Assembly (NCBI GenBank): GCA_003135895.1
Contig: PNBE01000205.1
Span: 3,926-39,976, forward strand
Source of the DNA: Candidatus Dormiibacterota bacterium
GTDB lineage: Bacteria > Chloroflexota > Dormibacteria > Aeolococcales > Aeolococcaceae
Direction of reading: 5' to 3'
DNA length: 36,051 nucleotides
The notes below the pieces were generated by a model. That model was given only the letters and a program-made list of their open reading frames with translations. It was not told where the DNA came from and made no database searches. The position numbers and the translations under genes were made by a program. The stretch's first letter is position 1. Each line of letters opens with the position of its first letter. Shown here piece after piece: positions 2,026 through 19,387 of the stretch.

Positions 2026-3324
2026 TCAGACATCCGCCAATGCATCGTCCAGGTTCGATAAGAAGACGTCGGCATTCTCGCGGCTGAAGGGCAGCGGAGG
2101 CCGGAGCTTTAGCACGTTCCCGAGAGGCCCCGTAATGCCTGTCAACACTCTACGCTCGCGAAGCCGATTCATCAGTCGTTGCGCCCTCGGCCCGTCGGGC
2201 ACCCCATCGGAGTGAGGCGCAACGATGTCTGCGCCGATGAACAATCCAGTGCCGCGAATCTCACCGATACCTCGATCCGCGCTCGCGATCCGACTCATGC
2301 CGCTTCGCAGATACTGTCCCACGCTCGTCGCATTGTCGAGTAAGCCTTCATCTGCCAGCACATCCAGTACAGCACGCGCGGCCGCCACGCACACGGAGTT
2401 CGCCGCGAACGTGTTGAAGTATTTCACCGCTGTCCCGAAGTCGGTCAACAGTTCTGCCCTCGCCACCACTCCAGCGATGGGCATTCCGTTCCCCATCGGT
2501 TTCCCGAGAGCGACCAGGTCCGGGACGACTCCATGGCGCTGAAACCCCCACATATCTCCAGTACGACCGAACCCAGCCTGCACCTCGTCGGCGACCACAA
2601 GACCGCCCGCTGCATGCACCACACCGACAGCATCTTGCAGAAAGCCCGCCGGGTGCGTGAAGACACCATCGGAGGAGAAGACGGTATCGACCACGAGAGT
2701 CCCGAATCCGATCCCGTGGCGCTCAAGGTCCTTGATCGCTGAGCTCACTGCCGCTGCCCAGACTGGTCCGGCGCCATCGCCTGAGGATGGAGCGTGGATC
2801 GTGCGGACATGCCGTCCAAGAGGCACGCGCTCGCCGATCATCGGTGATATCTCAGCGACACCAGTCGTGATGCCATGGTAGGCGTTGGCGGTCACGATGA
2901 TGCCCTCGCGACGTGTATGAAACCGCGAGATGCGGAGAGCGAGATCGATAGCCTCACTGCCGGTGCACGTGAACATCACGTGCTCCAGTTCGCTCGGGAA
3001 CGTTCTCAGCAGGCGCTCCGCGTAGTCCACCACCAGCTCGGAGGCATATCTCGTATTGGCGTTCAACGTCGCCGCTTGCTCTGCTATCGCGGCGACTACC
3101 CGAGGGTGGCAGTGGCCGACGGCCGGCACGTTGTTGTAAACGTCGAGGTACGCGCGACCCAGGTCGTCGTAAAGGTATACGCCTTCTCCGCGCACGAGAT
3201 GGATCGGCGCGTCGTACGAGAGTCTGTATGCTGGACCGAGTGCTCGCGCCCGGCGTCGCACGATGTTGTTGACGTCCACAGAGTCATCCCGTGCCAATCG
3301 GCTTTCGATGTCCTCTACCGTCAT
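2026..3324 (-). CDS. Class III PLP enzyme, AGXT2L-type phospho-lyase (hydroxylysine/ethanolamine-phosphate lyase-like)
   Basis: A 432-residue fold-type I PLP enzyme of the class III aminotransferase family. The cofactor lysine is about K275 in LGKPMGNGMPIAG, and the Asp that pairs with the pyridine nitrogen is D246 in VVADEVQAGFGRTG. The N-terminal third (VGHCHPRVV, LNANTRY, DYAERLL, GSEAIDLALR) resembles the human ETNPPL/PHYKPL phospho-lyases more than transaminases. Those enzymes eliminate phosphate from O-phosphoethanolamine or 5-phosphohydroxylysine, giving an aldehyde, ammonia and phosphate. The gene lies 18 bp downstream of a kinase of the hydroxylysine-kinase type, so the pair would phosphorylate and then eliminate an amino alcohol. 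An ordinary omega-transaminase role is possible but less likely in this context. Confidence 0.8.
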   Translation of the reverse strand: MTVEDIESRLARDDSVDVNNIVRRRARALGPAYRLSYDAPIHLVRGEGVYLYDDLGRAYLDVYNNVPAVGHCHPRVVAAIAEQAATLNANTRYASELVVDYAERLLRTFPSELEHVMFTCTGSEAIDLALRISRFHTRREGIIVTANAYHGITTGVAEISPMIGERVPLGRHVRTIHAPSSGDGAGPVWAAAVSSAIKDLERHGIGFGTLVVDTVFSSDGVFTHPAGFLQDAVGVVHAAGGLVVADEVQAGFGRTGDMWGFQRHGVVPDLVALGKPMGNGMPIAGVVARAELLTDFGTAVKYFNTFAANSVCVAAARAVLDVLADEGLLDNATSVGQYLRSGMSRIASADRGIGEIRGTGLFIGADIVAPHSDGVPDGPRAQRLMNRLRERRVLTGITGPLGNVLKLRPPLPFSRENADVFLSNLDDALADV

Positions 3325-3342
3325 GGGTTACGGACGCTACAC

Positions 3343-4419
3343 CTAGATCACGCCACAGCGGCGCATGAGATCTGCGACGACGACGCTGTGCGAAACCGCT
3401 TGCAGACTATTGAACTGAGCCCAGGTGCTGACGAGGTTGCGCACAATGTACGGGCGGTCCGCGGGAAACAGGGAGGCCCTCCACTCCGTGATGACAATGC
3501 GGAAGATCAACCTCATGAGGACCAAGTCAAAGAAGATCGTGAGCTCCTCCCTCAGCAGCGCTTCGATCTGATGGTAACCGACAACCAGATCGATTGCCGC
3601 GGCCGTGGGGTCCACGTCGCTTGTGATGTGATATGACGCTGCGACTGCCACATCGAGGATCAGTGGCGCTCGAACGGCGTCTCCGAAGTCGAGGATGCCG
3701 GAGACGACTCGACGATACGGGTCGATGAGGATGTTGCCACTGTTGAAGTCGTTGTGGATCATTTGGGAGCGTAGCGTTGTGAGCTGCGGGGATACAACAG
3801 TTGCGAAGCTGTCGACATGGCGGAGTAGCGTTTGGCGGGCGTTCCGATCAGGGATCACGGGAATGAGTTCTTTGAGGTGATGCGCCCATTGCAGATCCCA
3901 TATGAGAATGCGATCCGCTGCGCCGTGGGTGAAGTGTCGCAAGCCTTGGTCGAGACGCGCCAGCGTCGCTCCAACTTCGCGGCGGAGACTCGCCGATGGA
4001 GAAACAGAGTGCAACGGTCGCCCATACAGATACGAGGTGACGCGCGCGACGCGACCGGCGTTGTGACCGTTAGTCAGCTGATGCTCGCTGAGCCCGTCCT
4101 TTGTGGCAAGAACGCGCGGTGTCGGGATCGCGGGGGTTGTGACAGCGAGATAGAGAAGCAAGCTGGTGTGCAGATTCGTGACGAGCCGGTCTTCCTGGTG
4201 ATGAGCCACCTTGAGGACCAGCCGTGCGCCGTCACGGCCGTCAATTCGAAAATTATCATCACGTTCGCCCGTCAAACGTGTCGCCTTCCCCGCAGTTGCA
4301 TAGTAACGAAGCATCAACTCTGCAGCTTCGGCTGTTGAAAGCGGCGGGGAAGCTACTGCGAGGACTGCCTTCGAGGCAGCCCATGCTTCGGGGAACGGTG
4401 TCTCGAGGCGGCCCGTCAT
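3343..4419 (-). CDS. APH-fold small-molecule kinase, hydroxylysine-kinase-like
   Basis: A 358-residue protein with the aminoglycoside-phosphotransferase/choline-kinase fold. The catalytic loop is MIHNDFNSGNILID (about residues 220-233), with H222, D224 as base and N229. It is followed by GILDFGDA, whose D244 holds the magnesium. The N-terminal lobe carries DDNFRI and LVLKVAH, with a Lys at about 70 as the ATP-binding residue. This order and the linked phospho-lyase resemble hydroxylysine kinase (AGPHD1/HYKK) rather than antibiotic-modifying enzymes. It is the first gene of a two-gene minus-strand operon. The ATG at 4419 has only a weak ribosome site. The exact substrate (5-hydroxylysine, ethanolamine or another amino alcohol) is inferred from family and partner only. 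Confidence 0.75.
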   Translation of the reverse strand: MTGRLETPFPEAWAASKAVLAVASPPLSTAEAAELMLRYYATAGKATRLTGERDDNFRIDGRDGARLVLKVAHHQEDRLVTNLHTSLLLYLAVTTPAIPTPRVLATKDGLSEHQLTNGHNAGRVARVTSYLYGRPLHSVSPSASLRREVGATLARLDQGLRHFTHGAADRILIWDLQWAHHLKELIPVIPDRNARQTLLRHVDSFATVVSPQLTTLRSQMIHNDFNSGNILIDPYRRVVSGILDFGDAVRAPLILDVAVAASYHITSDVDPTAAAIDLVVGYHQIEALLREELTIFFDLVLMRLIFRIVITEWRASLFPADRPYIVRNLVSTWAQFNSLQAVSHSVVVADLMRRCGVI

Positions 4420-5125: not shown

Positions 5126-6157
5126 GTGGACTTCAGCCTGTTTCTCGACCTCAGGCCGCGTCAGGGCGCTCCCATGACGTCCGAGGATTTCGAACAGGCT
5201 GTGCAGCTGGTCCGAGCGGCCGAACGGCTTGGGTTCCACGGGGTCTGGACGAGCGAACAGCACGGCGTCGATGACGGATACCTCCCTGCGCAGCTGCCGG
5301 TGCTCGCCGCGTTTGCCCGGGAGACCACGACGCTGCGGCTCGGGACCGGTGTCATCCTCCTCCCGCTGACGCACCCACGTCACGTCGTCGAGGAGGCCTG
5401 CGTGGTCGATGTCATCTCGAATGGCCGGCTCACGCTTGGGCTGGGGGCGGGAAACTACCCGAACGAGTTCCGCATTTTCGGCGTCGACCCCGCGGATCGG
5501 CGTCGGCTCATGGAGGATGGGGTCACCTTCATCAAGGCAGGCCTGTCTGGAGGGATCTTGCCGGATGGCTCGTGGGTGAACATCCCGCCGGTGCAGCGGC
5601 CAATTCCGCTGGTGCTGGGCGGTCTTGTTGCGCCGGCAATCGACCGCGCGGTGCGGCTGGCGGACGGACACTTCGCCTATTCATTCAGCAACCCGGAGCA
5701 GACCTTGGCAGAGCTGTATGGAGAGCAGATCCGGCCTGCGCTGGATCGGCATGACCGCTCGCCCGATGGGTTCCGACTCCTGTTCGCATCGGTCCTCTGG
5801 CAGTCGGACTCGGCTGAAAGTGAATGGAGAGATGTCATCGGGCCGGCCTTCGCCTACCAGCAGCGCAAGTACGCGGAATGGGAGGAGAGCGCGGCGACCG
5901 CCGGCGGCTACGCGTTCGCCACCGACCTTGACCAGTCGCGCCGCGAGCTGTTCGTCGGACCGCCGGACCAACTGGCTGAGCGCCTGGTTTCGTTGCGCGA
6001 TCGCTATCCGTTTGACGAGGTCGTGTTCTGGGCCCGACTTCCGGGCGTACCGTTCTCCCTCGCCATGGAGCATCTCGAACGTCTGGCTTCCGGGTTGTTG
6101 CCAATGGTTCGAGAGGCGTCCCCGGTGCGCGTTGGAGACTACAGTGCTGGCTCATGA
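5126..6157 (+). CDS. LLM-class flavin-dependent oxidoreductase (luciferase-like)
   Basis: A 343-residue bacterial-luciferase-fold protein, the usual length for the family. Typical stretches are RAAERLGFHGVWTSEQH near the N terminus, TLRLGTGVILLPLTHP (the strand-loop lining the flavin pocket), SNGRLTLGLGAGNYP and PIPLVLGG. Members use reduced FMN or F420 to oxygenate or oxidise small organic substrates; which cofactor applies here cannot be told. The GTG start at 5126 is preceded by GGAG at good spacing. The gene opens the catabolic operon, and its last codons overlap the Rieske gene, whose GTG lies at 6144. No flavin reductase is encoded nearby, so reduced flavin would come from elsewhere. 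A monooxygenase acting on an N-alkyl or heterocyclic substrate is the reasonable inference. Confidence 0.85.
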   Translation: MDFSLFLDLRPRQGAPMTSEDFEQAVQLVRAAERLGFHGVWTSEQHGVDDGYLPAQLPVLAAFARETTTLRLGTGVILLPLTHPRHVVEEACVVDVISNGRLTLGLGAGNYPNEFRIFGVDPADRRRLMEDGVTFIKAGLSGGILPDGSWVNIPPVQRPIPLVLGGLVAPAIDRAVRLADGHFAYSFSNPEQTLAELYGEQIRPALDRHDRSPDGFRLLFASVLWQSDSAESEWRDVIGPAFAYQQRKYAEWEESAATAGGYAFATDLDQSRRELFVGPPDQLAERLVSLRDRYPFDEVVFWARLPGVPFSLAMEHLERLASGLLPMVREASPVRVGDYSAGS

Positions 6158-7235
6158 AGCGGAGATGCTGCAACGTCTATGGTTCCCGGTCGCCCGGCTA
6201 CAAGACCTGGAGTCCGACCGCCCCGTGGGAGGCGCCCTCCTGGGCAAGCGGGTTGTGGTGTATCGAAGCTCGGCTGGTGTCATCGTCGCCCTGGATCGCT
6301 GCCCGCACCGCGGAGCGCGGCTCTCGCTGGGACGCATGTCGGAGGGGACGCTCGAGTGTGCGTACCACGGGTGGCGATGGGGTCACGACGGCGCATGCGC
6401 GTTGGTGCCGTCGCAACCCGAAGTCCATTCCAATGCGACCCTCGAACTGCTCCCGGTACAGGAGCGTTTTGGTTTGGTCTGGACCAGCCTCGAAGCGACT
6501 CTCACGACTCCGCCCTCGATCCCCGAGATGGAGCACGACACCGGCGGTGGATGGGAGGTCGAGCTCGGCGAGTGGTTCGACGTCGGCTGCGGACTCAGGA
6601 GCATCACCGAGAACTTTCGTGATTCGAGTCACTTCGCCTTCGTCCATCGCGCGGCATTTGGCGACGTGAATCCAGCCATGGGCGCCTACACAGTGCATGC
6701 GGAAGGACGGCGGCTGTCGTGGGAGATTGCACTCACCTTCGGGTCGCCGTGGTCAGTTCGGGACGGCGACGATGGGCAGGCCCCCAAGTATCGGTTTGGC
6801 GAGTCGTCGGATAACGGGCCCGGCACTGACGCACCGGCGGAGATGCTCCTGAAGTACCGGTTTGAGATGCCGGCCCTCTCCTACGTCTACACCGAGCACG
6901 AGGGCGGCGGACGGCGGTTGGTCTGCCAGGCGGCAGCTCCCACGGGGCTTGACGGACGCTCCTGCCGCGTCTTCTTCTTCGTTGCCGCCAACAGCGAATT
7001 TCGACGCCAGAACGGCCCGCTGTCCGCTCAGGTCGAGCTGGAGGCGCGGATCTTCGCTGAAGACGTTCCCATCGTCGAGAGCCTCGACCCGCCTGACGCC
7101 CCGCTGGAACTCCAGGGCCAGGCACACGTCCGAGCTGACCGCTATTCGATCGCGTATCGAAAGCTGTATGAGGAAATGCTCAACGAATTCAGGTCCTCTC
7201 GCCAACACCAGCCGGCCGGTGCGGATTGGAAATGA
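6144..7235 (+). CDS. Rieske non-heme iron oxygenase, oxygenase component
   Basis: A 363-residue oxygenase of the vanillate O-demethylase / phenylpropionate-dioxygenase-like group. The Rieske 2Fe-2S ligands are C53-x-H55 (RCPHRGA) and C72-x2-H75 (CAYHGW), 16 residues apart. The mononuclear iron site is D160-x2-H163-x4-H168 (DSSHFAFVH), with the third ligand probably D307 in AEDVPIVE. Family members demethylate or hydroxylate aromatic, N-methyl or heterocyclic substrates using electrons from a reductase. I chose the GTG at 6144 because GGAG lies 6 nt upstream and it couples to the previous gene; the ATG at 6165 has GGAG directly abutting it. No ferredoxin or reductase gene is present in the window, so the electron donor must be elsewhere. 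Confidence 0.9.
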   Translation: MLAHEAEMLQRLWFPVARLQDLESDRPVGGALLGKRVVVYRSSAGVIVALDRCPHRGARLSLGRMSEGTLECAYHGWRWGHDGACALVPSQPEVHSNATLELLPVQERFGLVWTSLEATLTTPPSIPEMEHDTGGGWEVELGEWFDVGCGLRSITENFRDSSHFAFVHRAAFGDVNPAMGAYTVHAEGRRLSWEIALTFGSPWSVRDGDDGQAPKYRFGESSDNGPGTDAPAEMLLKYRFEMPALSYVYTEHEGGGRRLVCQAAAPTGLDGRSCRVFFFVAANSEFRRQNGPLSAQVELEARIFAEDVPIVESLDPPDAPLELQGQAHVRADRYSIAYRKLYEEMLNEFRSSRQHQPAGADWK

Positions 7236-7245
7236 GGCGCGAGTC

Positions 7246-8037
7246 ATGAGTGCAGTCAGGCATGGCGGGCGTCTCGCTGACAAGGTCGCGGTGATCACCG
7301 GCGCGACCTCGGGCCTCGGCTGGGCCGGCGCAGTGCGCTTTGCCGAGGAAGGCGCGAAAGTCGTTGCGGCGTCGAGGCGCACCGCTGAGGGAGCCGAGCT
7401 CGTTCACGCGATCGAAGCGGCCGGCGGCGAGGCTGTCTTCGTCAAATGCGACGTGGCCGATCCGAGTGATGTCGAGCGACTGATCGCCAGTGCCGAAGCG
7501 AGGTTCGGCTTGGTGAATGTCCTGTATCACAGTGCCGGCGTCATGCCCACCGGAACGGCACCGGAAACGAGCGAGGCGGACTGGCGGCAGGCCATCGACG
7601 TCAACCTCGGAGGCGCGTTCTGGCTGGCGAAGTTCGGGATTCCGGCTCTGGAACGCGCGGGAGGCGGCTCGATCATCCTGACCGCGTCGGAACTCGGGCT
7701 TGTCGGCGCCCGCAGTATGGCGGCGTATTGCGCTGCCAAAGGTGGGGTGGTCAACCTCGTGCGCGCGCTCGCGGTCGACTGCGGACCGCTCGGCATCCGT
7801 GTCAATTCCCTGTGCCCCGGTCCGATCGACACGCCGATGCTCCGCGGCTGGTTCGAGGCCGCGTCTGATCGCGCCGCGGCTGAGCACGTCCAGACCGATC
7901 CGCTACCGCTGGGCCGCGTCGGTCGGCCCGGTGAGATCGCCGATGCTGCGGTGCACCTCGCGTCCGATGCTTCGAGCTACATGACCGGCTCGGTCATGGT
8001 GGTCGACGGTGGTGCCACGGCCTGGTACGGGTTGTGA
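7246..8037 (+). CDS. Classical SDR oxidoreductase
   Basis: A 263-residue short-chain dehydrogenase. The nucleotide motif is TGATSGLG (about residues 18-25), the structural Asn is N120 in DVNLGG, and the active site holds S148 (ILTASEL), Y161 and K165 (YCAAK). The C-terminal VVDGGATAWYG is typical. The usual NNAG is HSAG here. It would oxidise a secondary alcohol or reduce a carbonyl with NAD(P)H. The ATG at 7246 is 10 bp after the Rieske stop, with GAGG upstream. Its position right after two oxygenases suggests that it oxidises the alcohol they create. A second active SDR with the same YCAAKGG active-site stretch occurs further down the operon. Confidence 0.9.
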   Translation: MSAVRHGGRLADKVAVITGATSGLGWAGAVRFAEEGAKVVAASRRTAEGAELVHAIEAAGGEAVFVKCDVADPSDVERLIASAEARFGLVNVLYHSAGVMPTGTAPETSEADWRQAIDVNLGGAFWLAKFGIPALERAGGGSIILTASELGLVGARSMAAYCAAKGGVVNLVRALAVDCGPLGIRVNSLCPGPIDTPMLRGWFEAASDRAAAEHVQTDPLPLGRVGRPGEIADAAVHLASDASSYMTGSVMVVDGGATAWYGL

Positions 8038-8049
8038 GGTGGGTCGTGC

Positions 8050-8856
8050 ATGACTGATGCTGGAATGGGCGATCGCATGCCGGCGGACGCACCCCTGCTG
8101 CTCGAGACCCTCACGTCCCCCGACGTTGCCAAGCTCATCCGCGACCAAGTACCGCTCGTGCTTCCCGTCGGAGCGATCGAGCAGCACGGACCGCATCTGC
8201 CGCTCGGCACCGACGGGTTCATCCCCTACGAAGTCGCGAAGCGTGTGGCTGCGGGCCGTCGCCTCATCGTTGCGCCCCCCATGTTCTTCGGGGCGTACTC
8301 GCGACCGAGGACGGGCGGCGGGAGGCACTTTCCCGGATCGGTCGGCCTCCCCGGGCGGGTCCTCGAGAGCGTCGTCGGGACACTCCTCGCCGACTGGTTC
8401 CGCCAGGGCTTCCGGAACCTCGTTGTGCTGAACGGCCACTTCGAGAATGCGTGGACTCTCCTCGAGGCGATCGAGCAGGGCACGGAGCGATCCAGCCCGG
8501 ACCAGAAGGCGCTGTTGATCCACTGGTGGGACCAGGTGAGTCCCGACGACATCCGCCGGATATTCGGTGAGTCGTTCCCGGGATGGGAGGCCGAGCACGC
8601 CTCGATCACAGAGACGTCGATGATGGAGTACATGCGGCCGGATCTCGTCAGAACCAACCTGAAAGCTGACGGTGGCGCCCAACGGATGACCACGTACGAC
8701 ATCTTCCCCGCGCCCGCCGACATCCTCTGGCCGAACGGCATCGGCTACAGCGCCCTTCCCGCCTCGCCCGAGATCGGTGAGCAGCTGGTCAGCGTGCTGG
8801 TGCGCAACATCGGGCGCATTCTCGATGAGGAGTTTCCGGGGGCCGCAGGCGCGTGA
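8050..8856 (+). CDS. Creatininase (creatinine amidohydrolase) family, catalytically complete
   Basis: A 268-residue protein, the usual creatininase length. The binuclear metal site is complete: E44 and H46 (AIEQHGPH), D55 (LGTD), H130 and E132 (NGHFEN). The residues that in Pseudomonas creatininase shape catalysis (Trp154, Trp174, His178) also have counterparts in W160, W179 and H183 (GWEAEH), and TETSMM and YDIFP match that enzyme's C-terminal half. Creatininase reversibly opens the lactam of creatinine to creatine. A close relative acting on another cyclic amidine or amide is possible. It lies 12 bp after the SDR, and the next gene's GTG overlaps its TGA. Together with the downstream ureohydrolase and urease genes it suggests ring opening followed by urea release. 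No creatinase (M24 family) gene is visible. Confidence 0.85.
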   Translation: MTDAGMGDRMPADAPLLLETLTSPDVAKLIRDQVPLVLPVGAIEQHGPHLPLGTDGFIPYEVAKRVAAGRRLIVAPPMFFGAYSRPRTGGGRHFPGSVGLPGRVLESVVGTLLADWFRQGFRNLVVLNGHFENAWTLLEAIEQGTERSSPDQKALLIHWWDQVSPDDIRRIFGESFPGWEAEHASITETSMMEYMRPDLVRTNLKADGGAQRMTTYDIFPAPADILWPNGIGYSALPASPEIGEQLVSVLVRNIGRILDEEFPGAAGA

Positions 8857-9800
8857 GGATCTACTTCTGCTCCGACATCCACGCGTCGCGAAAGTGCTGG
8901 AAGAAGTTCCTCAACTCGTGGAAGTTCTACGAAGCCGACACCATCATCGTCGGCGGCGACATCACCGGAAAATTCGTCGTTCCGATCGTCGAGACACGCC
9001 CTGGCGATTACACGGCGACGTTCATGGGCGTGCAGCGCAAGGTCAACTCTCCGAAGGCACTCGAAGCACTCAAAGTCATGATCGCCGACTCCGGCCAGTA
9101 CGACTTCATCACGACGCCCGACGAGTACCGAACCTATCAAGGGGACCAGGCGAAGATCGACACACTGTTCCGCCGTCTGGTCGTCGAGCGGGCGCAGGAA
9201 TGGATGGCCGAGGCAGACATGAAGCTCCGCGGCACGGGCGTCCGGTGTTTCGTGTCTGGCGCCAACGACGATTTCTTCGAGATCGATGACGTGATCGCCT
9301 CCTCCGAGGTCATCGAGGATCCGAATGGGAAGGTCATCGAGCTCGAGGGGGGATTTGAATTGCTCGGCATGGGCTACGGGAATCCAACGCCGTGGGCATG
9401 CCCCCGAGACATCCCCGAGGACGCGCTGGCCGGTCGGATCGATGCCGCTGCCAAAGGTGTGCACGACTTGAGCCGGGCGATCTTCAGCTTGCATGTCCCG
9501 CCGCTCGGAAGCGGCCTCGATATCGCGCCCAAGCTCGACGACTACCTGCGGCCCCGCGTCGGCTCGGACGGGCTCGAAATGATCCCAGTCGGGAGCACCG
9601 CGACGCGTGACGCAATCATCAAATACAAACCTATAATCGGCCTGCACGGCCACATCCACGAGTCCAAGGGGATCAAGCAACTCGAGGGTGTGACGATCGC
9701 CAACCCGGGGAGCGAGTATGGCGAAGGGATACTCGACGGACTGCTTGTCGACGTAGACCCGCACAAAGGACTTCAGCGAGTAGAGCTGGTAGTGGGATAA
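8853..9800 (+). CDS. Calcineurin-like metallophosphoesterase
   Basis: A 315-residue protein with the ordered metal motifs of the family: D8-x-H10 (CSDIH), D36 (VGGDI), N138 in SGANDD, H214 (SLHVPP), and H267 and H269 (GHIHES), ending with IANPGS. The usual GNH(D/E) motif is replaced by G-A-N-D, so the metal-binding Asn stays while the catalytic His is Asp; some phosphodiesterase branches vary at this place. The insert between residues 40 and 125 is long. The GTG start overlaps the creatininase stop by 4 bp, so the two are translationally coupled. A phosphoesterase is unexpected in a hydrolytic nitrogen pathway. It might remove a phosphate from an intermediate, or act on a nucleotide or a non-phosphorylated amide. 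Confidence 0.8.
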   Translation: MRIYFCSDIHASRKCWKKFLNSWKFYEADTIIVGGDITGKFVVPIVETRPGDYTATFMGVQRKVNSPKALEALKVMIADSGQYDFITTPDEYRTYQGDQAKIDTLFRRLVVERAQEWMAEADMKLRGTGVRCFVSGANDDFFEIDDVIASSEVIEDPNGKVIELEGGFELLGMGYGNPTPWACPRDIPEDALAGRIDAAAKGVHDLSRAIFSLHVPPLGSGLDIAPKLDDYLRPRVGSDGLEMIPVGSTATRDAIIKYKPIIGLHGHIHESKGIKQLEGVTIANPGSEYGEGILDGLLVDVDPHKGLQRVELVVG

Positions 9801-9822
9801 GGAATTAGTAACGGAGGGCAGC

Positions 9823-11406
9823 ATGGCGACAGAGATGCCGACCGTCACGGGTGTCTTCACCCGAGCGAGTTCAGGGCTAGTCAGACAGGTCAGAACCCAG
9901 GACGTTGTCTTCTACGGCGTGTCCCAGATTGCGCTGTCGTACATCGTGTTCGTCGTCCTCGCATGGGGCTTGTACCCTGGGGCATCAATGCCGATCGCGG
10001 CGCTCATTGCGACGGTGGGCGGGCTGGCGATGGGTGTCTGCTACGCGATGTTCGCCACGCTCTATCCGCGCACGGGCGGCGAGTACGTGTACCTGTCGCG
10101 CACCCTGTCGCCGGTCGTCGGTTTTGTCGTGAGCTTCTCGTTCGCGTTCTGGGAGGCGTTCTACGCCGGCGTCAGCGGTGCGTTCCTCAGCCTGTACTCG
10201 ATCTCGCCGTTCCTGGCGGGACTTGGTCTTCAGATGAAGAGCCAGGCTTTGTTGAACGCGTCGACCTGGTTCAATCATGGCTGGGGCATTTTCCTCGGTG
10301 GCAGCGCCGCGATCGTGCTCGTCATCTGGCTCCAGATTCGTGGCGCCGGCGTGTATTTCCGGTGGCAACGGTGGGCGGCCTACGCAGCGTTCGCAAGCAT
10401 CGCTATCACCATCGTCGTGCTCCTGCTGGCGGCGACGGGTGCGCTCGACTTCAAGTCCAACTTCGACTCCATCGCCGGCGCCGGCTCCTACAACAAGATC
10501 GTGGCTCAAGGTGTGAAGGCGGGCTTGGCGCCATCAGCCCCGTTCAATCTTGGGAACACGATCAACTTCATGATCTGGCCGGCATTTTCGATCTGGTTCG
10601 CGGTCGCGTCGACCTCGTTCTCCGGCGAGATCAAGAATGTGCAGCGGAGTCAGCTGCTCGGTATCTCGGGTGCGGTGGTGCTCATGGGCATCGCCTTCAT
10701 CGCGCTGACGTGGCTCTATCAGGCAGCATTCGGGAGCAGCTTCCTCCTCACCACAGCGGTTCAGGGCGTTCCGGTGCAAGCACCGCCCTATGTTCCGTTC
10801 TTCACCGCCGTCGCAGGGGGCCAGCCGATACTGACGATCTTGATGAGCGTCTGGGTGGTGTTCATCGCGGTGTTCGTCATCGGCACCACGCTCATCTATG
10901 CGAGTCGAGCCACCCTCGCATGGAGCATCGACGGCGTCGCTCCTGAGTGGCTGGGCAACGTCAGCGAGCGGTATCACTCCCCGCACTACGCCCTTCTCGT
11001 GTGGGGGGTGGTTGCCGAGATCTTCCTCGCGCTGTTCGCGTTCACGACACTGCTCGGTCCGATTTCAGGATTCCTCGGGCTGGCCATATCGTTCATCGTC
11101 GTCAGCATCTGGGCGATCTTCTATCCCTTCGTGCGCAAGGTGCAGTTCGACAACTCCGCGATCGCGTGGCGGGTGGGTGGCTTTCCGCTCATGAGTCTGC
11201 TTGGGATCATCGCCACGATCATCGTGGGCTACGGCTTCTGGCGCCTTGCGGTTGACGGTTCGTTCTCGACGAATCTCGGCTTCGCGGACGGAGGGGCGGC
11301 GGTCGGAGTGATCTTTGCAGCGATCTGGTTCTTCGCCTTCAAGGCATATCGCAAGCGGCAGGGAGTCGACATCAACCGCCGCTACGCGGAAATCCCGATC
11401 GAGTAG
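9823..11406 (+). CDS. APC-superfamily amino acid/polyamine permease
   Basis: A 527-residue integral membrane protein with about 12-14 hydrophobic segments. A charged N-terminal tail is followed by helix 1 (VVFYGVSQIALSYIVFVVLA) and the family's second-helix region LYPRTGGEYVYLSRTL. That R-x-GGxYxY element is characteristic of APC amino acid permeases. It would import the substrate, probably an amino-acid-like or cationic guanidino compound, across the cytoplasmic membrane. The ATG at 9823 has a good GGAGGG ribosome site at 9813-9818. It sits in the middle of the catabolic operon, 22 bp after the phosphoesterase and 13 bp before the next gene, so it is probably the dedicated uptake system of the pathway. 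Confidence 0.85.
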   Translation: MATEMPTVTGVFTRASSGLVRQVRTQDVVFYGVSQIALSYIVFVVLAWGLYPGASMPIAALIATVGGLAMGVCYAMFATLYPRTGGEYVYLSRTLSPVVGFVVSFSFAFWEAFYAGVSGAFLSLYSISPFLAGLGLQMKSQALLNASTWFNHGWGIFLGGSAAIVLVIWLQIRGAGVYFRWQRWAAYAAFASIAITIVVLLLAATGALDFKSNFDSIAGAGSYNKIVAQGVKAGLAPSAPFNLGNTINFMIWPAFSIWFAVASTSFSGEIKNVQRSQLLGISGAVVLMGIAFIALTWLYQAAFGSSFLLTTAVQGVPVQAPPYVPFFTAVAGGQPILTILMSVWVVFIAVFVIGTTLIYASRATLAWSIDGVAPEWLGNVSERYHSPHYALLVWGVVAEIFLALFAFTTLLGPISGFLGLAISFIVVSIWAIFYPFVRKVQFDNSAIAWRVGGFPLMSLLGIIATIIVGYGFWRLAVDGSFSTNLGFADGGAAVGVIFAAIWFFAFKAYRKRQGVDINRRYAEIPIE

Positions 11407-11419
11407 GCGCCGCGTCGTA

Positions 11420-12052
11420 GTGATCGTTCTGGTCGCGGCGGCTGCGAACGAGGAGGTATCCCAACTCGCCGATGAGTTGGGCGGACCCGAAAGGGTCGTC
11501 CTCCTCACTTCGCAGCCGCCTCCGCGGCTCACCTCGGGCATTTCCATTCTCGACGTTGACCTCATGTCAGCCGTCGGGACATCCGAAGCCTGGCGGCTAC
11601 TCGAAGAGACGCACGGACCCGCCGATGCATTGGTGGTTGCCCCCGCTCCAGCGACGACCACTGGCACTCGCGTCGCCGACGTCAGCGATGCGTTCTGGTC
11701 GTCGGCGATGGCCGGCCTGACGGTTGCCATGCACGCTGCCCGTGCAGCCGTCGGACCGATGATGCGTCGAGGGCGTGGCAGGATCACGTTCGTCACGTGG
11801 CGTATCGACGATCCGGAGGGTCAGGTTCCGCTTGCTACCGTCTCCGGCGCGATCATCCAGCTGGCTCGAGCTCTGGCGACCGAGCTCGGGACGAGTGGAG
11901 TGACCGCGAACGCCATCTCTGTCGCACCTGGGCGGTTGGCATCAGTGGCCCCTGTGGTGCGCTTCCTCGGTTCGGCAGCATCTGGATATCTCACGGCGGA
12001 AGTGATTTCGGTCGGCGGGACGAAGGCTGCCTCCTCGTGGTGGAATGGATGA
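11420..12052 (+). CDS. Degenerate SDR-fold protein, probably catalytically inactive
   Basis: A 210-residue protein that keeps the later SDR framework: GRGRITFVT (strand E), ALATELGTSGVTANAISVAPG (helix F and strand F, residues 151-171) and a C-terminal VISVGGT. It has lost the catalytic and cofactor elements. The glycine-rich TGxxxGxG is replaced by AAAANEE, NNAG by VAPAPA, and the Tyr-x3-Lys pair by residues of ATVSGA. It is also about 40 residues shorter than its neighbours. The GTG at 11420 is the likely start. Its last codons overlap the active SDR gene by 4 bp (ATGA), so the two products are made together. Active/inactive SDR pairs that form heteromers are known (BbsCD of toluene degradation). 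A structural partner role is my inference. Confidence 0.75.
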   Translation: MIVLVAAAANEEVSQLADELGGPERVVLLTSQPPPRLTSGISILDVDLMSAVGTSEAWRLLEETHGPADALVVAPAPATTTGTRVADVSDAFWSSAMAGLTVAMHAARAAVGPMMRRGRGRITFVTWRIDDPEGQVPLATVSGAIIQLARALATELGTSGVTANAISVAPGRLASVAPVVRFLGSAASGYLTAEVISVGGTKAASSWWNG

Positions 12053-12816
12053 TGCGCGGCCTGACCGGTAAGGTGGCCTTGGTGACCGGCGCGGGTCAGG
12101 GGATCGGCGCCGCCATCGCCGCACGACTAGCCTCGGAAGGCTGCGTCATTGCCGTCAACTCGCTGCACCCAGAGAAGGCCGAAGCCACTGCGACCCGTCT
12201 CCGGGAGAATCAAGTGCGCGCCGAGGCCTTTCCGGCCGACGTCGCAGACCCCGACGCGGTGGACGCGATGGTGCGGGCCGTCGAGGAACGTCTCGGCGTC
12301 GTCAACATCCTCGTCAACAACGCCGCGGTCCTGGAGATGGCGCCCTTTGTTGACCTGGATCTCGGGGTCTGGGATCGGACGATTGCGGTCAACCTCACGG
12401 GGCCCTTTCTCTGTACACGGCGGGTGGTTTCCGGGATGCTCGACGCTCAGTGGGGGAGGATCGTCAACATGTCCTCGATCTGGGGCGTCATCGGTGCGAG
12501 GGGAGCAACAGCGTATTGCGCGGCGAAAGGAGGATTGATCGAGATGACACGAGCATTGGGGGCCGAGCTTGGTCCGGGTGGAGTTGCCGTCACCGCGGTC
12601 GCGCCAGGAGTCATCGACACTCCGCAGCTCGCCGCGGATGCGGGCTTCGCCGGTGTGACCCTGGATGAGATGAAAGCGCTGTATGCAGAAGACACTGTCG
12701 TTGGCCGTATCGGCACCACGGCGGAAATCGCCCACGCAGTGGCCTTTCTGGCTTCCGAGGATGGCATGGGGCTGTGCGGCCAGGTGCTGCCGGTCACCGG
12801 AGGGCGGTCAGAGTGA
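12049..12816 (+). CDS. Classical SDR oxidoreductase
   Basis: A 255-residue short-chain dehydrogenase with all motifs: TGAGQGIG (residues 13-20), NNAA at 90-93, N115 (AVNLTG), S143 (NMSSIW), Y156 and K160 (YCAAK), and the C-terminal VTGG. The sequence is close to the FabG/glucose-dehydrogenase type. It should oxidise a hydroxyl group of a pathway intermediate with NAD(P)+. The start ATG (12049) overlaps the stop of the degenerate SDR, and its TGA overlaps the GTG of the ureohydrolase, so three genes are linked by 4-bp overlaps. A second ATG directly follows the first, and either could be used. Confidence 0.9.
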   Translation: MMRGLTGKVALVTGAGQGIGAAIAARLASEGCVIAVNSLHPEKAEATATRLRENQVRAEAFPADVADPDAVDAMVRAVEERLGVVNILVNNAAVLEMAPFVDLDLGVWDRTIAVNLTGPFLCTRRVVSGMLDAQWGRIVNMSSIWGVIGARGATAYCAAKGGLIEMTRALGAELGPGGVAVTAVAPGVIDTPQLAADAGFAGVTLDEMKALYAEDTVVGRIGTTAEIAHAVAFLASEDGMGLCGQVLPVTGGRSE

Positions 12817-13844
12817 GCGATCAGACACCCGTCGGCGACGCGCAACCCAAGCCCTCCCCCCGGTATGTGCCCGCTGACTCGCTGCAGAGTCCGAGATTCA
12901 CAGGTATCCCAACCTTTGCCCGTCTGCCCAACGTCCGCACCACCGAGGACGTCGACCTCGCAATTATCGGGGTGCCCTTCGACACGGGCGTGTCGTTCCG
13001 CGCCGGCGGACGTTTCGGACCGAACGCGATCCGCGCTGCCTCCGTCCTGATCAGAGGGCACAACCCCGTGCTTGAGGTGCACCCGTTCCGGGTCCTCTCG
13101 TGCGTCGATTACGGCGACGTCGCCATCGTGCCGGGTTACATCGAGCGCAGTTACGAGATCATCGAGCGCGAGGTCACTCCGGTCGTCAATGCGGGTGTGA
13201 TTCCGCTCCTGCTCGGTGGGGATCACTCCGTCACACTGCCACACCTGCGCGCGACCCGCTCGGTCGGACCGGTGGCCGTCATCGACTTCGATTCGCACAC
13301 CGACGCCTGGGACTCGTTCTTCGGCGAGAAGTACAACCACGGCACCTGGATGCGCCGGGCGATCGAGGAGGGGCTGGTCGACGTGGACCACTCGATCGAG
13401 GTCGGCCTGCGCGGGTCGGTGTACGGCCCTGACGATTGGCCGGTCTTGAAACGAGAGCTGGGCCTCGAATACATCCCCACGCACGAGGTCCTCACCCAGA
13501 GCCCCGACGTGACCATCGAGGCGATCCGCCGCCGAGTCGGAGGCCGTCCAACCTTCATCAGCTTCGATATCGACGTCGTGGATCCCGCGTTCGCACCAGG
13601 AACCGGCACACCCGAAGCGGGGGGCCTCTCGTCGTTTCAGGCTCTCCAATTGATCCGGGGATTGCGGGGCATCGATTTCGTCGGGTTCGACGTCGTCGAG
13701 GTCATACCCAGCTACGACTCGGGTGAGGTGACCGCGATACTCGCCGCGAACCTCGCGTTCGAGATGATCAGTCTCTCTGCATTGAGGCGACTCGAAGGAG
13801 GAACTCGGACTCCTGCCCGCATCGTGTCCACGGAGCAAGCGTAA
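12813..13844 (+). CDS. Ureohydrolase 1, agmatinase/guanidinobutyrase-like
   Basis: A 343-residue arginase-superfamily enzyme that hydrolyses a guanidino group to an amine and urea with a binuclear Mn (or Ni) site. Ligands are H138 (GGDHS), D160, H162 and D164 (DFDSHTDAW; the family's usual Ala is Ser), D252 and D254 (SFDIDVVDP). The loop APGTGTPEAGG and the substrate segment with HGTWMRRAIEEG match the agmatinase / guanidinobutyrase branch (GbuA, SpeB) rather than true arginases. The GTG start overlaps the previous stop by 4 bp. The urease-like genes follow after 27 bp, so released urea could be used at once. Within the operon it is the natural next step after ring opening by the creatininase. 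The substrate is not determined by sequence. Confidence 0.9.
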   Translation: MSDQTPVGDAQPKPSPRYVPADSLQSPRFTGIPTFARLPNVRTTEDVDLAIIGVPFDTGVSFRAGGRFGPNAIRAASVLIRGHNPVLEVHPFRVLSCVDYGDVAIVPGYIERSYEIIEREVTPVVNAGVIPLLLGGDHSVTLPHLRATRSVGPVAVIDFDSHTDAWDSFFGEKYNHGTWMRRAIEEGLVDVDHSIEVGLRGSVYGPDDWPVLKRELGLEYIPTHEVLTQSPDVTIEAIRRRVGGRPTFISFDIDVVDPAFAPGTGTPEAGGLSSFQALQLIRGLRGIDFVGFDVVEVIPSYDSGEVTAILAANLAFEMISLSALRRLEGGTRTPARIVSTEQA

Positions 13845-13871
13845 GGTGCCGACCGGCGCGGCGCACTAGGT

Positions 13872-14441
13872 ATGTATGTGTCGGCCACGGAGCACGATCG
13901 TCTTCTGGTGTTTCTCGCCGCCGAACTCGCTCGCCGAACCCTGTCTCAGGGCGAGAAGCTCAGCGCTCCGGAGGCGATCGCTATCATCTGCGACGGCATG
14001 CACGCGGCAGCCCGATCGGGATCGACGTACGACGAAGTCGTCGCGACCGGCATGTCTGCACTGAGCAGTGACGACGTCCTCGAGGGCGTGCCCGCGCTGG
14101 TTGAAGAGGTACGGCTCGAGGTGCTGCTCGGCGATGGATCCCGACTGATCGTCCTGCGCGATCCACTTGGTCACGCGACACACCTCGGCACTCCAGGTAC
14201 CGTGACGATCAACGAGGGCCGGCGGCGCATCACCCTCGAGGTCACCAGTCATTCGCAGATGCCGATTCGGGTGGCGTCGCACTTCCCATTCTGGTTGTCG
14301 AATCGACGACTTTCCTTCGACCGCGGGGCAGCTCGCGGCTACCACCTCGACCTCGCCGCCGGGGCGTCGCTGCGCTGGCAACCCGGCCAAACTCGACGTG
14401 TCGCCCTCGTCGCGTACGCACGTCAAGCAAGCGTCGGATGA
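13872..14441 (+). CDS. ureAB: Urease gamma-beta fusion subunit (UreA-UreB type)
   Basis: A 189-residue fusion of the two small urease subunits. Residues 1-100 match UreA: SATEHDRLLVFLAAELA, then SAPEAIAIICD, then DDVLEGVPALVEEVRLE. Residues 105-189 match UreB: GTVTINEGRRRITLEV, MPIRVASHFPFW, LSFDRGAARGYHLDLAAG and WQPGQTRRVALVAY. The tail is shorter than usual UreB, which normally runs on through GFRGEVMGP. Fused gamma-beta subunits are known in Helicobacter ureases. The ATG at 13872 aligns with UreA N termini, although a GTG at 13878 has the better-placed AGG. The stop overlaps the alpha-subunit start by 4 bp. The product should form the scaffold around the catalytic subunit in the cytosol. 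Confidence 0.85.
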   Translation: MYVSATEHDRLLVFLAAELARRTLSQGEKLSAPEAIAIICDGMHAAARSGSTYDEVVATGMSALSSDDVLEGVPALVEEVRLEVLLGDGSRLIVLRDPLGHATHLGTPGTVTINEGRRRITLEVTSHSQMPIRVASHFPFWLSNRRLSFDRGAARGYHLDLAAGASLRWQPGQTRRVALVAYARQASVG

Positions 14442-16165
14442 GGATGTCGAAAGAGCGCTATCGAGCGCTCTACGGGCCGACCACTGACGATGTGATCCGG
14501 CTTGCGGATACGAACCTGAGCGTCGTGGTCGAGGCCGATGACGTTGGCTACGGCGACGAACCGATCTGGGGGTACGCGAAGAACATCCGCGCCGGCATGA
14601 CCCAGTACGACAAGGTCCCCAGCGCCAGTGAGCTCGACGTGGTCGTTGCCGGGGTTGTGGTTGTCGATCCCCTCCTGGGCATACGCAAGACGAACATTGG
14701 GATCAAGGACGGCAGAATCGTCGCGATTGGAAGGGCGGGGAGCCCAAGTATCAGCGATGGCGTTGACTTGGTCATCGGACCCCACACCATGCCCGTCATG
14801 GGGTACGGGTTGATCGCGACCCCCGGAGGCGTCGACAGCCACGTGCACCTCCTCACACCGCGCCTGATCCCCGTGGCGCTGTCCGCCGGAGTGACGACGT
14901 TGATCACAGGCGGGTTCGAGGAGCCCCCCTTTGCAATGTTGCAGACGCTTCGAGCACTCGAGGGGTGGCCTGTCAATATTGGTCTGCAGGCATGTGCTCG
15001 CACCACCAACCCAGAGGCACTCGTTGCGCTCCTGGAGGCGGGCGCAGTCGGCTTCAAGATTCACGAGGATTACGGCGCGACGCCCGAGATCATCGACGGC
15101 ACGCTGGCGATCGCCGACGTGCACGACGTCACTGTCTGCCTGCATACGGACGGGCTCAACGAGTCCTGCGAGCTCGAAGACACGGTGCGAGCCATCGCTG
15201 GTCGTGCTATTCATGCCTATCACGTCGAGGGCGCCGGTGGTGGGCACATCCCGAACCTGATGGAGATCGTCGCTGAGTCCAACGTGATCTGCTCCTCGAC
15301 AACGCCGACGCTGCCTTACGGCACCGCCGCGGCGCGAGAGCACCAGGACATGATCTTGCTGAGTCACAACGGGTCCGCTCAGTCCGAAGATGACCTCGCC
15401 GCTGCGCTGGAACGGATCCATCCGGCCACGATGGCTGCCGAGGGCCCCTTGCACGAGCTGGGAGCGATCAGCATCATCAACAGCGACTCGCAGGGGATGG
15501 GTCGAATCGGCGAGACCGTTCGACGAACCTGGCAACTTGCTCACGTCATGAAGACCTGGCGCGCGCAGCGCGAGGGTATCGGATGGCATGAGCCCGCCGC
15601 GGTAGCTCGCAGCGGACCCTCTGCGACGGCCGGCATTATCAGCCTGGATAACGACAATGAGCGGGTCCTCAGGTACCTCAGCAAGTACACCATCAATCCG
15701 GCCATCACACATGGAGTCGCCGCTGACGTGGGGACGCTGGCGACCGGGCGTCTGGCGGACATAGTGCTCTGGAAGCCAACCTATTTCGGGGTGCGTCCGG
15801 AACTGATTCTCAAGGGCGGCTATCCGGCGTGGGGTGCGCTCGGCGAAGGTAATGCCTCCGTCGAGCGCAGCGAGCCGGTGCAATACGGCAGCCACTGGGG
15901 AGGTATGGCGCCCAACTCACTCGCCACCACTTTTGTCTCGCGCGCTGCGCTCGACACAGGTATCGCCGCGGCGTTGGGCAGCCGCCGTACCCTGCGCACA
16001 CCTCACGGGAGCAGAGGCGTGACCCGGCGATCGATGGTGGGGAATGACTATGCTCCGAGCATCACGGTCGATCCGGTGAATGGGAGCGTGACTCTGGATG
16101 GAAGATTGCTGACCGCGACCCCGGTGGACGAGGTGCCGCTGAATCGCCGGTACTTCCTGGCATAG
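14438..16165 (+). CDS. ureC: Divergent urease alpha (catalytic) subunit
   Basis: A 575-residue protein, matching the usual UreC length. All metal ligands are present: H135 and H137 (DSHVHL), the carbamylated-lysine position K207 with H209 (GFKIHEDYGATP), H236 (CLHTDGLNES), H262 (YHVEGAGGGH) and D350 (NSDSQGMGR). The mobile flap differs. The normal C-H-H-L-D-P is S309-H310-N-G-S-A, so the flap Cys is Ser, while the general-acid His (H310) and the conserved Arg (R326) stay. The reaction is expected to be urea to ammonia and carbamate, but the altered flap allows another substrate. No ureD, E, F or G gene occurs in this window, although nickel insertion normally needs them. Helicobacter mustelae has an iron urease with fused small subunit and no adjacent accessory genes, a possible parallel. 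Confidence 0.9.
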   Translation: MRMSKERYRALYGPTTDDVIRLADTNLSVVVEADDVGYGDEPIWGYAKNIRAGMTQYDKVPSASELDVVVAGVVVVDPLLGIRKTNIGIKDGRIVAIGRAGSPSISDGVDLVIGPHTMPVMGYGLIATPGGVDSHVHLLTPRLIPVALSAGVTTLITGGFEEPPFAMLQTLRALEGWPVNIGLQACARTTNPEALVALLEAGAVGFKIHEDYGATPEIIDGTLAIADVHDVTVCLHTDGLNESCELEDTVRAIAGRAIHAYHVEGAGGGHIPNLMEIVAESNVICSSTTPTLPYGTAAAREHQDMILLSHNGSAQSEDDLAAALERIHPATMAAEGPLHELGAISIINSDSQGMGRIGETVRRTWQLAHVMKTWRAQREGIGWHEPAAVARSGPSATAGIISLDNDNERVLRYLSKYTINPAITHGVAADVGTLATGRLADIVLWKPTYFGVRPELILKGGYPAWGALGEGNASVERSEPVQYGSHWGGMAPNSLATTFVSRAALDTGIAAALGSRRTLRTPHGSRGVTRRSMVGNDYAPSITVDPVNGSVTLDGRLLTATPVDEVPLNRRYFLA

Positions 16166-16765
16166 ATGAGCGAGCGCATGCTGATCCCGGCTCGTGGGGC
16201 GGTTGCCGTGCGGGTGGCTGCCGATCAGCGCTTCCGGGTGATCGACCTCGAGGGCACCCAGGTGGTTGATCTCTTTGCCTTTGTCGACGGCGATGTCGGT
16301 GAATACGCGAGTGCTGAGCACACGCGGGTGTTTGTGAAGCGGCTCTTTCCGAAGTCCGGCGAGCCGTTTGTCACGAACCGCCGCCGCCCGCTTCTGCTGC
16401 TTGAGGAGGATTCGTCGCCCGGTGTCCACGACATGCTCTGCGCTGCGTGTGATCCGACGAGATACGCGCTCCTGGGGCACACGGGCTGGCACGCCTCGTG
16501 CCAGGAGAACCTCGAGCGCACGATGGACGAGCTTGGCTATGCCGGTGTTGAGATTCCCCAGCCGATCAACCTGTTCATGAACGTCTCGCGCGACGCCGAC
16601 GACGCGCTGAACTTTGCCCCGGCGCTGACGAGAGCAGGCGACTCCGTCACGCTTCGGGCGCTGCTGCCGTCCATCGTTGTCGCGTCCGCGTGTCCGATGG
16701 ATCTGAACGTCATCAACGGGGCGGGTCCGACCGATGCGGCTGTCGAGGTTCTGGATCCGGCGTAG
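16166..16765 (+). CDS. DUF1989 (urea carboxylase-associated / carboxyguanidine deiminase-like) protein
   Basis: A 199-residue member of the DUF1989 family. Diagnostic stretches are DLEGTQVVDLFAF, the metal-site candidates H88, C92 and C95 (HDMLCAACDP), H109 and C112 (HASCQENL), INLFMNV at 135-140 and VASACPMDLN with C176. Characterised relatives, UAAP1/UAAP2 (CgdA/CgdB), deiminate carboxyguanidine and sit beside guanidine/urea carboxylases. Here the gene instead follows urease alpha with no gap: TAG is directly followed by ATG. It could act on a carboxylated or carbamoylated nitrogen intermediate, or help the urease-like enzyme. The subunit is single, whereas CgdAB is a pair. Its last 53 bp overlap the 3' end of the convergent amidase gene. 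Confidence 0.85.
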   Translation: MSERMLIPARGAVAVRVAADQRFRVIDLEGTQVVDLFAFVDGDVGEYASAEHTRVFVKRLFPKSGEPFVTNRRRPLLLLEEDSSPGVHDMLCAACDPTRYALLGHTGWHASCQENLERTMDELGYAGVEIPQPINLFMNVSRDADDALNFAPALTRAGDSVTLRALLPSIVVASACPMDLNVINGAGPTDAAVEVLDPA

Positions 16766-18382: not shown

Positions 18383-19387
18383 ATGGCGACGAAGCACCCC
18401 GACATGTTCACCGCCGCCGCCGCCTCGACGGGTCATGGAGGGCTGTTGCACAGTGGTCCCGGGACGTTCCTGAAGTCCCCCGGCGTGGCATGTGAGACAA
18501 AGGCGATTCAGGAACACGGCGCCAAGGCAGTCTTCCTGGGAGTGCCCTTCGACCAGGCGACCATCTATCGTTCCGGATCCAGCCTCGCACCGAAGATGAT
18601 GCGGTTCGTCTCAGACCAATACCTCCCCTACCTCGGTGACTTCGACATCAATCTGTTCGACGAGTTCGGCCTGGTCGATGCCGGCGACGTGCCGATCATC
18701 CCGGCCAACGCTGAGCGCTCACGGAACAACATCGAGGAGTGTGTCGGCAATATCCTCGATGCCGGTGCGATGCCCATCTGCATCGGCGGCGATCACTCGC
18801 TCCCCATCCCGATCGGGCAAGCCCTGTCCAAGCGCATCGGCCCCGACAAGAAGTTCGGCTACATCCACTTCGACGCGCACATCGATTGCCAGCCGGACTT
18901 CCACGGCGAGCCGTACACAAACTGGTCGCATATGGCGCGGATGGTCGAGCTGCCCAACATCGACGCGAAGAACATGGCCGTCGTGGGCGTGCGTGGCGCA
19001 ACCAACCCTCCCGAGCAGTGGCGATTCATCGAAGAGAATGGGATCAATCTCTACCGCATGCGGGAGATTCGCCGCCGCGGAGTCGAGGATGTCGTGGCAG
19101 ATGCGCTGGCCAAAGTGACAGACGGCGTCGACGCCTTCTACGTCAGTTGGGATTCCGACGTTGTGGACGCGGCCTTCCTTCCCGGCACCGATGGGCCCGA
19201 GGTTGGCGGCATGACGTCATGGGAGATCCTCAAGGCATGCGAGATGGTCGGCGCGAAGAAACCTGCAGTGATGGACATAGTCGAGTTGATTCCCGCCTAT
19301 GATCACCCAAGCTACATTTCGCACCGGCTGGCCTGCTATTTCATCTTCCATCTGCTCGGCGGCATGGCCACTGGAGGCGTGAGCTAG
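18383..19387 (+). CDS. Ureohydrolase 2, divergent branch
   Basis: A 334-residue arginase-superfamily enzyme. Metal ligands are intact: H138 (GGDHS), D164, H166 and D168 (HFDAHIDC), D257 and D259 (SWDSDVVD). The loop that usually reads DPAFAPGTGTPE is DAAFLPGTDGPE, and the substrate segment after the first Asp cluster (PYTNWSHMARM) lacks the HGT of agmatinases. An N-terminal extension of about 45 residues (TGHGGLLHSGPGTFLKSPGV) precedes the fold. It should release urea from a guanidino compound, but neither agmatinase nor guanidinobutyrase can be assumed. Guanidine hydrolase and metformin hydrolase also belong to this superfamily and remain candidates. The start has the best ribosome site in the region. 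The nucleotidyltransferase-like gene follows after 64 bp. Confidence 0.88.
   Translation: MATKHPDMFTAAAASTGHGGLLHSGPGTFLKSPGVACETKAIQEHGAKAVFLGVPFDQATIYRSGSSLAPKMMRFVSDQYLPYLGDFDINLFDEFGLVDAGDVPIIPANAERSRNNIEECVGNILDAGAMPICIGGDHSLPIPIGQALSKRIGPDKKFGYIHFDAHIDCQPDFHGEPYTNWSHMARMVELPNIDAKNMAVVGVRGATNPPEQWRFIEENGINLYRMREIRRRGVEDVVADALAKVTDGVDAFYVSWDSDVVDAAFLPGTDGPEVGGMTSWEILKACEMVGAKKPAVMDIVELIPAYDHPSYISHRLACYFIFHLLGGMATGGVS

Follow-up and report, generated by a model that had tools for sequence, protein, structure and literature searches.

Two routes of creatinine degradation are established in bacteria, one running through creatininase, creatinase and sarcosine oxidase and the other through a deaminase, a hydantoinase and carbamoylsarcosine amidase (PMC8864220); a model of Corynebacterium glutamicum ATCC 14067 has a creatininase without a creatinase, there feeding the deaminase route (PMC8864220). 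Ureohydrolases that act on guanidino acids are represented by the 3-guanidinopropionase GpuA and the 4-guanidinobutyrase GbuA (3nip, 3nio), and in GbuA residue Arg72 caps the active site from the neighboring subunit, where it is positioned to touch the substrate carboxylate (PMC9772407). The human GbuA-type enzyme AGMAT hydrolyzes neither creatine nor guanidinoacetate (PMC9772407). Finally, guanidine-riboswitch operons, which encode guanidine carboxylase or guanidinase, include APC permeases and arginase-family guanidinases (PMC12186494). Among open-licence papers, we found no relevant one that pairs a creatininase with a ureohydrolase.

Here we describe such a pairing in a stretch of 36,051 nucleotides from a Candidatus Dormiibacterota genome (contig PNBE01000205.1; hereafter ‘the window’). 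The genome assembly is 79% complete and genome-wide absences come from targeted searches, such that they are provisional.

A creatininase-family gene in a tightly spaced gene run

Twelve + strand genes, separated by gaps of at most 27 bp, extend from 5126 to 16765 and are the first twelve of the features below, in order; beyond the run lie two further ureohydrolases (UH2 and UH3), two amidases and one amidohydrolase.

5126–6157, +, luciferase-like flavin oxidoreductase, opening the run (Pfam/NCBIfam)
6165–7235, +, Rieske/VanA_C oxygenase (Pfam)
7246–8037, +, SDR dehydrogenase SDR1, 12 bp upstream of CRN
8050–8856, +, CRN, creatininase-family hydrolase with the full Glu/His/Asp metal set plus Glu132, Trp160 and Trp179 (profiles, alignment, model)
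8853–9800, +, metallophosphoesterase MPE (Pfam)
9823–11406, +, APC-family permease (APC), candidate importer (Pfam)
11414–12052, +, SDR-like protein, partial match, start tentative (the codon at 11414 is GTC)
12052–12816, +, SDR dehydrogenase SDR2
12813–13844, +, ureohydrolase 1 (UH1), guanidino-acid hydrolase clade (structure matches, alignment)
13872–14441, +, divergent urease gamma-beta fusion (Pfam; under the NCBIfam cut-offs)
14438–16165, +, urease alpha-like protein, metal ligands and catalytic His/Arg kept, flap Cys replaced by Ser, loop shortened
16166–16765, +, DUF1989/urea-amidolyase-associated-like protein (NCBIfam)
18383–19387, +, ureohydrolase 2 (UH2), closest solved relative metformin hydrolase subunit A
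19452–20243, +, NTP, unannotated, weak nucleotidyltransferase fold (no Pfam or NCBIfam match)
22788–23840, −, Amidohydrolase_2 protein (AH2), 47% homologue adjoins a UH3 homologue in CRN cluster L026
23686–24732, −, ureohydrolase 3 (UH3), 60% identical to the ureohydrolase adjoining CRN in L026

The CRN open reading frame is a real gene of 268 amino acids (GC of 0.68/0.48/0.84 by codon position) that shares 4 bp with the gene that follows. It matches the Pfam Creatininase profile at 167.8 bits and passes the NCBIfam creatininase profile TIGR04448 by a narrow margin (236.6 bits, cut-off 235), while scoring 66 bits against the profile for IolN (3-dehydro-scyllo-inosose hydrolase), under its cut-off of 245. 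The top solved-structure match is Pseudomonas creatininase (E 3e-43), and an AlphaFold model (40 aligned sequences as input, mean pLDDT 92.4) overlays that enzyme at 1.5 Å with a TM score of 0.89, an overlay proposed in an earlier note on this DNA that bears out its assignment. Judged by sequence, then, CRN is a member of the creatininase family and a candidate for creatinine hydrolysis. The gene was found in none of six same-genus genomes searched, and the other genomes of the class yielded one relative at E ≤ 1e-30, such that CRN may have been acquired by transfer.

Several neighbors of CRN recur with it elsewhere. Homologues of SDR1 (57–59% identity) occur in two related CRN clusters, those of MPE in clusters L024, L027 and L064 (51–57%) and L039 (36%), those of APC in the same four clusters, and those of NTP in L024, L026, L064 and L039. 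NTP is conserved next to MPE and the APC permease in several genomes, although the MPE-APC-NTP set is also found without CRN; its structure model is poor (pLDDT 71) and its nucleotidyltransferase matches are weak. The Rieske/VanA_C oxygenase (6165–7235) is possibly a demethylase, and no reductase was seen adjoining it. Upstream of the run, at 2026–4419 on the − strand, an aminotransferase class III gene and an APH-type kinase gene correspond to the two parts of the fused family PRK06148.

The CRN pocket and its place in the creatininase tree

All eight catalytic and pocket residues that the earlier note had matched to Pseudomonas creatininase do align: E44, H46, D55, H130, E132, W160, W179 and H183 of CRN correspond to E34, H36, D45, H120, E122, W154, W174 and H178 (Pseudomonas numbering is used below). 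The pocket differs at S78 (T88 in CRN), Y121 (F131) and D175 (E180). Little can be learned from His178 and the metal ligands E34/H36/D45/H120, which the whole family shares, whereas the combination of Glu122, Trp154 and Trp174 occurs in none of 39 other creatininase-family proteins, including the second family member of the same genome. Across ~60 creatininase-type relatives, both Trp residues are kept in creatinase-linked and deaminase-linked enzymes, with the exception of L025, while the Trp174 position is occupied by Ile or Thr in ureohydrolase-linked alphaproteobacterial CRNs and by Leu in mycobacterial ones. The pair is also seen in creatininases adjoining SDRs only (L034, L036, L038), and so is no proof of creatinine as substrate. 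Taken together, the residues indicate that CRN, in an unusual setting, has a pocket of the creatinine type; because the Trp pair is kept, creatinine or glycocyamidine is the favored candidate substrate in the window. Since Trp174 is missing from many of the relatives linked to ureohydrolases, creatinine may not serve as the substrate in every case, and theirs is probably another compound.

CRN thus shares with Pseudomonas putida creatininase (1j2t) and its creatinase-linked relatives the fold, the metal ligands, the catalytic Glu, the Trp pair and the catalytic His, but it is ~35% identical to the P. putida enzyme, is placed by the best tree outside their clade, and sits without a detected creatinase partner in a run of ureohydrolase and SDR genes. 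It forms a lone long branch, at most 39% identical to any relative found. Topology tests reject neither its forced inclusion in the creatinase-linked clade that holds the Pseudomonas enzyme (p-AU 0.077) nor its union with an actinobacterial UH/MPE set (p-AU 0.34).

Ureohydrolases and a divergent urease

The top solved relatives of UH1 are 3-guanidinopropionase (3nip) and guanidinobutyrase (3nio), at 278 bits each, as against 218 bits for agmatinase and 158 bits for guanidine hydrolase. All arginase-family metal ligands are kept, as is the equivalent of the carboxylate-capping Arg72 of GbuA, a residue retained by every guanidino-acid-hydrolase-clade ureohydrolase that we found adjoining a creatininase. 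By these features UH1 is a guanidino-acid hydrolase of the GpuA/GbuA clade, predicted to release urea; it differs from GpuA and GbuA in being encoded with a creatininase and a urease, and its guanidino-acid substrate is putative. An arginase-fold enzyme had been said to take creatinase's place next to CRN. UH1 does belong to the same tightly spaced + strand run, but it is the fifth gene downstream, the immediate next gene being that of the metallophosphoesterase (8853–9800). UH2 scores 231 bits against metformin hydrolase subunit A, although it has no clear subunit B partner nearby, and UH3 is ~40% identical to the additional ureohydrolase that some CRN operons of Alphaproteobacteria encode. 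The window holds three of the five arginase-family genes in the genome, and the chance that random placement would bring three of five within 11.1 kb is ~0.0003.

An initial reading of the urease alpha-like protein as inactive through loss of its catalytic Arg (R to His) was discarded, since proper numbering shows Arg338 to be kept and the flap Cys and its neighbor to be changed. Because no UreG was found by targeted search of the 79% complete genome, the urease may nevertheless be inactive or differently matured. Relatives of this urease (61–65%) occur in three genomes of the phylum (L179–L181) with none of the window's guanidino genes nearby. At another locus (L186, G277:C86), two ureohydrolases of the UH1 type lie side by side with a DUF1989 protein and a urease-like set, and no creatininase accompanies them.

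Partners of the classical routes

The earlier note had reported creatinase to be missing near CRN, and its suggested genome-wide search gave the same picture. No M24 creatinase is present in the window, and in the assembled genome there are only generic M24 proteins with 26–27% identity to a creatinase query, as compared with at least 59% to the same query for creatinases adjoining creatininases elsewhere. The sole Creatinase_N match in the genome, a fragment on C172 (L030:12643-14798), proved on inspection to be no creatinase but a generic M24 protein interrupted by a gap in the assembly; it adjoins a DoeB-like gene, with which it may represent ectoine-type degradation. A search for sarcosine oxidase returned an unlinked gene of the N-methyltryptophan-oxidase type (MTOX/MSOX family; 226 bits, soxA_mon cut-off 480), which could oxidize sarcosine. 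One archaeal query detected no cytosine-deaminase-type gene in the genome, and neither a deaminase nor a hydantoinase is among the neighbors in the window.

Creatininase–ureohydrolase loci in other bacteria

Relatives drawn from a scan of genome contigs and plasmids place creatininase-type genes in several settings: adjoining an M24 creatinase, adjoining a deaminase or hydantoinase (deaminases in L037, L051, L059, L074 and L077), with SDR and ureohydrolase genes, or with window-type genes. At creatininase–creatinase loci the two genes lie close together. Ureohydrolases lie near creatininase-type genes at nine of 42 loci as compared with none of 38 loci of control family members (p 0.003, relatedness uncorrected), the nine including one locus (L060) in which the gene is 8.7 kb off and on the other strand; in L032, L047 and L049 (the last from Mesorhizobium qingshengii) the ureohydrolase directly follows the creatininase, an order seen in Rhizobium, Mesorhizobium, Acetobacter, Mycolicibacterium and other bacteria. 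Mapped on the creatininase tree, the ureohydrolase label requires at least three changes on well-supported branches, such that creatininase and ureohydrolase are found together in three or more distinct lineages of creatininases. SDR genes also accompany creatininases without a ureohydrolase (L053, L062, L066, L118).

Operons of the order SDR-SDR-creatininase-ureohydrolase are found in Mesorhizobium, Rhizobium, Acetobacter and Hansschlegelia, and an SDR-creatininase-ureohydrolase operon in Mycolicibacterium hodleri. In Rhizobium CIAT894 the ureohydrolase directly after CRN is a strong 3-guanidinopropionase match (462 bits), while the pair is annotated only as creatininase and agmatinase. The alphaproteobacterial operons share with the window a creatininase, a guanidino-acid hydrolase and SDRs, and sometimes a UH3-type second ureohydrolase, but they carry Ile or Thr at Trp174 whereas the window CRN keeps both Trp residues. 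Nearer in gene content, CRN occurs with several of MPE, APC, NTP and SDR in one Mycobacterium, one Dehalococcoidia and three relatives from the same class or phylum. In one class relative (G061, L024), NTP-SDR-MPE-APC-UH-CRN form a single run on one strand, directly preceded by a guanidine-I riboswitch (RF00442; L024:8605-8704, −; 76.1 bits, gathering threshold 63). This riboswitch-led CRN/UH cluster, with its arginase-family hydrolase and APC permease, resembles the described guanidine-riboswitch operons; the window differs from them in that it has no riboswitch and in that UH1 is not of the guanidine-hydrolase type. Specifically, no riboswitch reached the gathering threshold and no guanidine aptamer appeared at E ≤ 1 in the window, and the guanidine-I model had no match in CRN's own genome. 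The sole weak RNA match in the window, 5_ureB_sRNA, was set aside as antisense inside the urease gene and below threshold. The Dehalococcoidia cluster (L039) includes an amidinotransferase (7469–8647) whose best solved relatives are SxtG and human AGAT, with no Pfam or NCBIfam match.

Other neighbors were seen at single loci. An MppQ-like aminotransferase (enduracididine biosynthesis; 330 bits, under the cut-off) adjoins creatininase, APC and MPE at L027:13966-15129, and in Streptosporangium (L073) and Salipiger (L118) the creatininase adjoins an NtaA/DmoA-type flavin monooxygenase, which is another context again.

A proposed pathway and its alternatives

We consider it somewhat more probable than not that CRN hydrolyzes cyclic amides as a metal-dependent enzyme of the creatininase type, within an operon for the catabolism of guanidino compounds in which UH1 stands in for creatinase. 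The sequences themselves give the families of the enzymes, their active-site residues, the arrangement of the genes and the repeated co-occurrence of CRN with a ureohydrolase in distant bacteria; from these we infer an order of reactions, a substrate, its import and the use of urea, as follows. The APC permease would probably import the substrate, a cyclic acylguanidine with a five-membered ring (creatinine itself, glycocyamidine or a closely similar compound), which CRN would open to a linear guanidino acid. UH1, requiring the newly formed carboxylate, would then split this acid to urea and an amino acid, replacing creatinase, and the divergent urease just downstream may use the urea. Possible tasks for the SDR, metallophosphoesterase, NTP, Rieske and luciferase-like genes are to ready the substrate or to complete its processing, hydroxyl oxidation and N-methyl removal being examples. 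The order from CRN to UH1 is chemically sensible because ring opening makes the carboxylate that the ureohydrolase requires.

This proposal is supported by the creatininase fold and pocket of CRN, by the place of UH1 in the GpuA/GbuA clade with its Arg72, by a pairing that recurs in several separate lineages, by the guanidine-I riboswitch and the amidinotransferase in related clusters, by the absence of a detected creatinase and the clustering of ureohydrolases in the window, and by the UH1-type pair that sits with urease in G277. It is weakened by the distance of CRN from its relatives, its unsure place in the tree and the position of UH1 five genes on; by the rejection of creatine and guanidinoacetate by human AGMAT; by SDR genes with no obvious role in creatinine hydrolysis; and by MPE-APC-NTP sets that lack CRN, the missing riboswitch and the missing UreG. 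The route from creatine-like acids to urea suggested in the earlier note is thus upheld as regards a creatininase-type site, the lack of a detected creatinase, a guanidino-acid hydrolase in the run and a recurrent pairing; creatinine or creatine is only a candidate substrate, in view of the unsure place of CRN in the tree, the loss of Trp174 in relatives, the AGMAT result and the dehydrogenase genes that many ureohydrolase-linked relatives carry, which are superfluous to a plain creatinine-to-urea route.

These dehydrogenases might instead mean that CRN acts on a non-guanidine cyclic substrate after SDR dehydrogenation, in the manner of IolN, an inositol-pathway member of the creatininase family, with the ureohydrolases as separate neighbors for arginine- or agmatine-type compounds. 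SDRs do accompany many CRNs, including the ureohydrolase-free loci noted above, and Trp174 is lost in many of the SDR/UH-linked enzymes; we nevertheless think this unlikely, as the window CRN passes the creatininase profile, falls far short of the IolN cut-off and keeps its Trp pair; that creatininases repeatedly occur with guanidino enzymes, and once downstream of a guanidine riboswitch, also speaks against it. Quite improbable, in our judgment, is an ordinary creatininase of the classical pathway whose creatinase is encoded in the fifth of the genome missing from the assembly. The creatinine-type pocket, shared with creatinase-linked enzymes, the incompleteness of the assembly, the unrejected grouping with the creatinase clade and the oxidase gene elsewhere in the genome would all fit, but creatinase-linked loci keep both genes close, the run in the window is whole and without creatinase, and the neighborhood of CRN fits the ureohydrolase type.

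Two further possibilities seem to us very remote. A creatininase working in reverse to feed a creatinine deaminase has its precedent in the C. glutamicum model (PMC8864220), a case of creatininase without creatinase, and creatininases adjoining deaminases do exist, yet a single archaeal query matched no cytosine-deaminase-type gene in the genome, and the neighbors in the window include neither a deaminase nor a hydantoinase. We likewise give hardly any weight to an operon for free guanidine or methylguanidine with CRN in a side role: the riboswitch on the related cluster and the APC permeases and arginase-family guanidinases of guanidine-riboswitch operons (PMC12186494) would suit it, but UH1 scores higher against GpuA/GbuA than against guanidine hydrolase and retains the Arg that caps the carboxylate. 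Breakdown of streptidine or another guanidino-cyclitol, considered in view of the two SDRs, an IolN-like step and two ureohydrolases, was dropped, as the sequence gave no reason to prefer it to other guanidines and the literature search yielded no paper.

Implications for creatinine-type catabolism

Creatinine-like cyclic guanidines are common as animal waste and as soil nitrogen, and a pathway joining creatininase to ureohydrolase would represent a novel variation on creatinine-type catabolism. More tentatively, and with rather more doubt than confidence, we suggest that the loci described here belong to a widespread pathway new to science, in which SDR oxidation, ring opening by a creatininase paralogue and carboxylate-dependent ureohydrolases follow one another, responsive to guanidine in at least one lineage; in many lineages its substrate would be a hydroxylated or larger cyclic guanidine rather than creatinine, and the window may hold a creatinine-type variant. 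If ureohydrolases can replace creatinase, many pairs annotated as ‘creatininase’ and ‘agmatinase’ have been misread, creatinine use may be wider than creatinase surveys indicate, and new enzymes for assaying creatinine or breaking down guanidines may become available. Thanks to the conserved pairing and to the riboswitch, these ideas can be tested directly in sequenced, named relatives such as Mesorhizobium and Mycolicibacterium hodleri.
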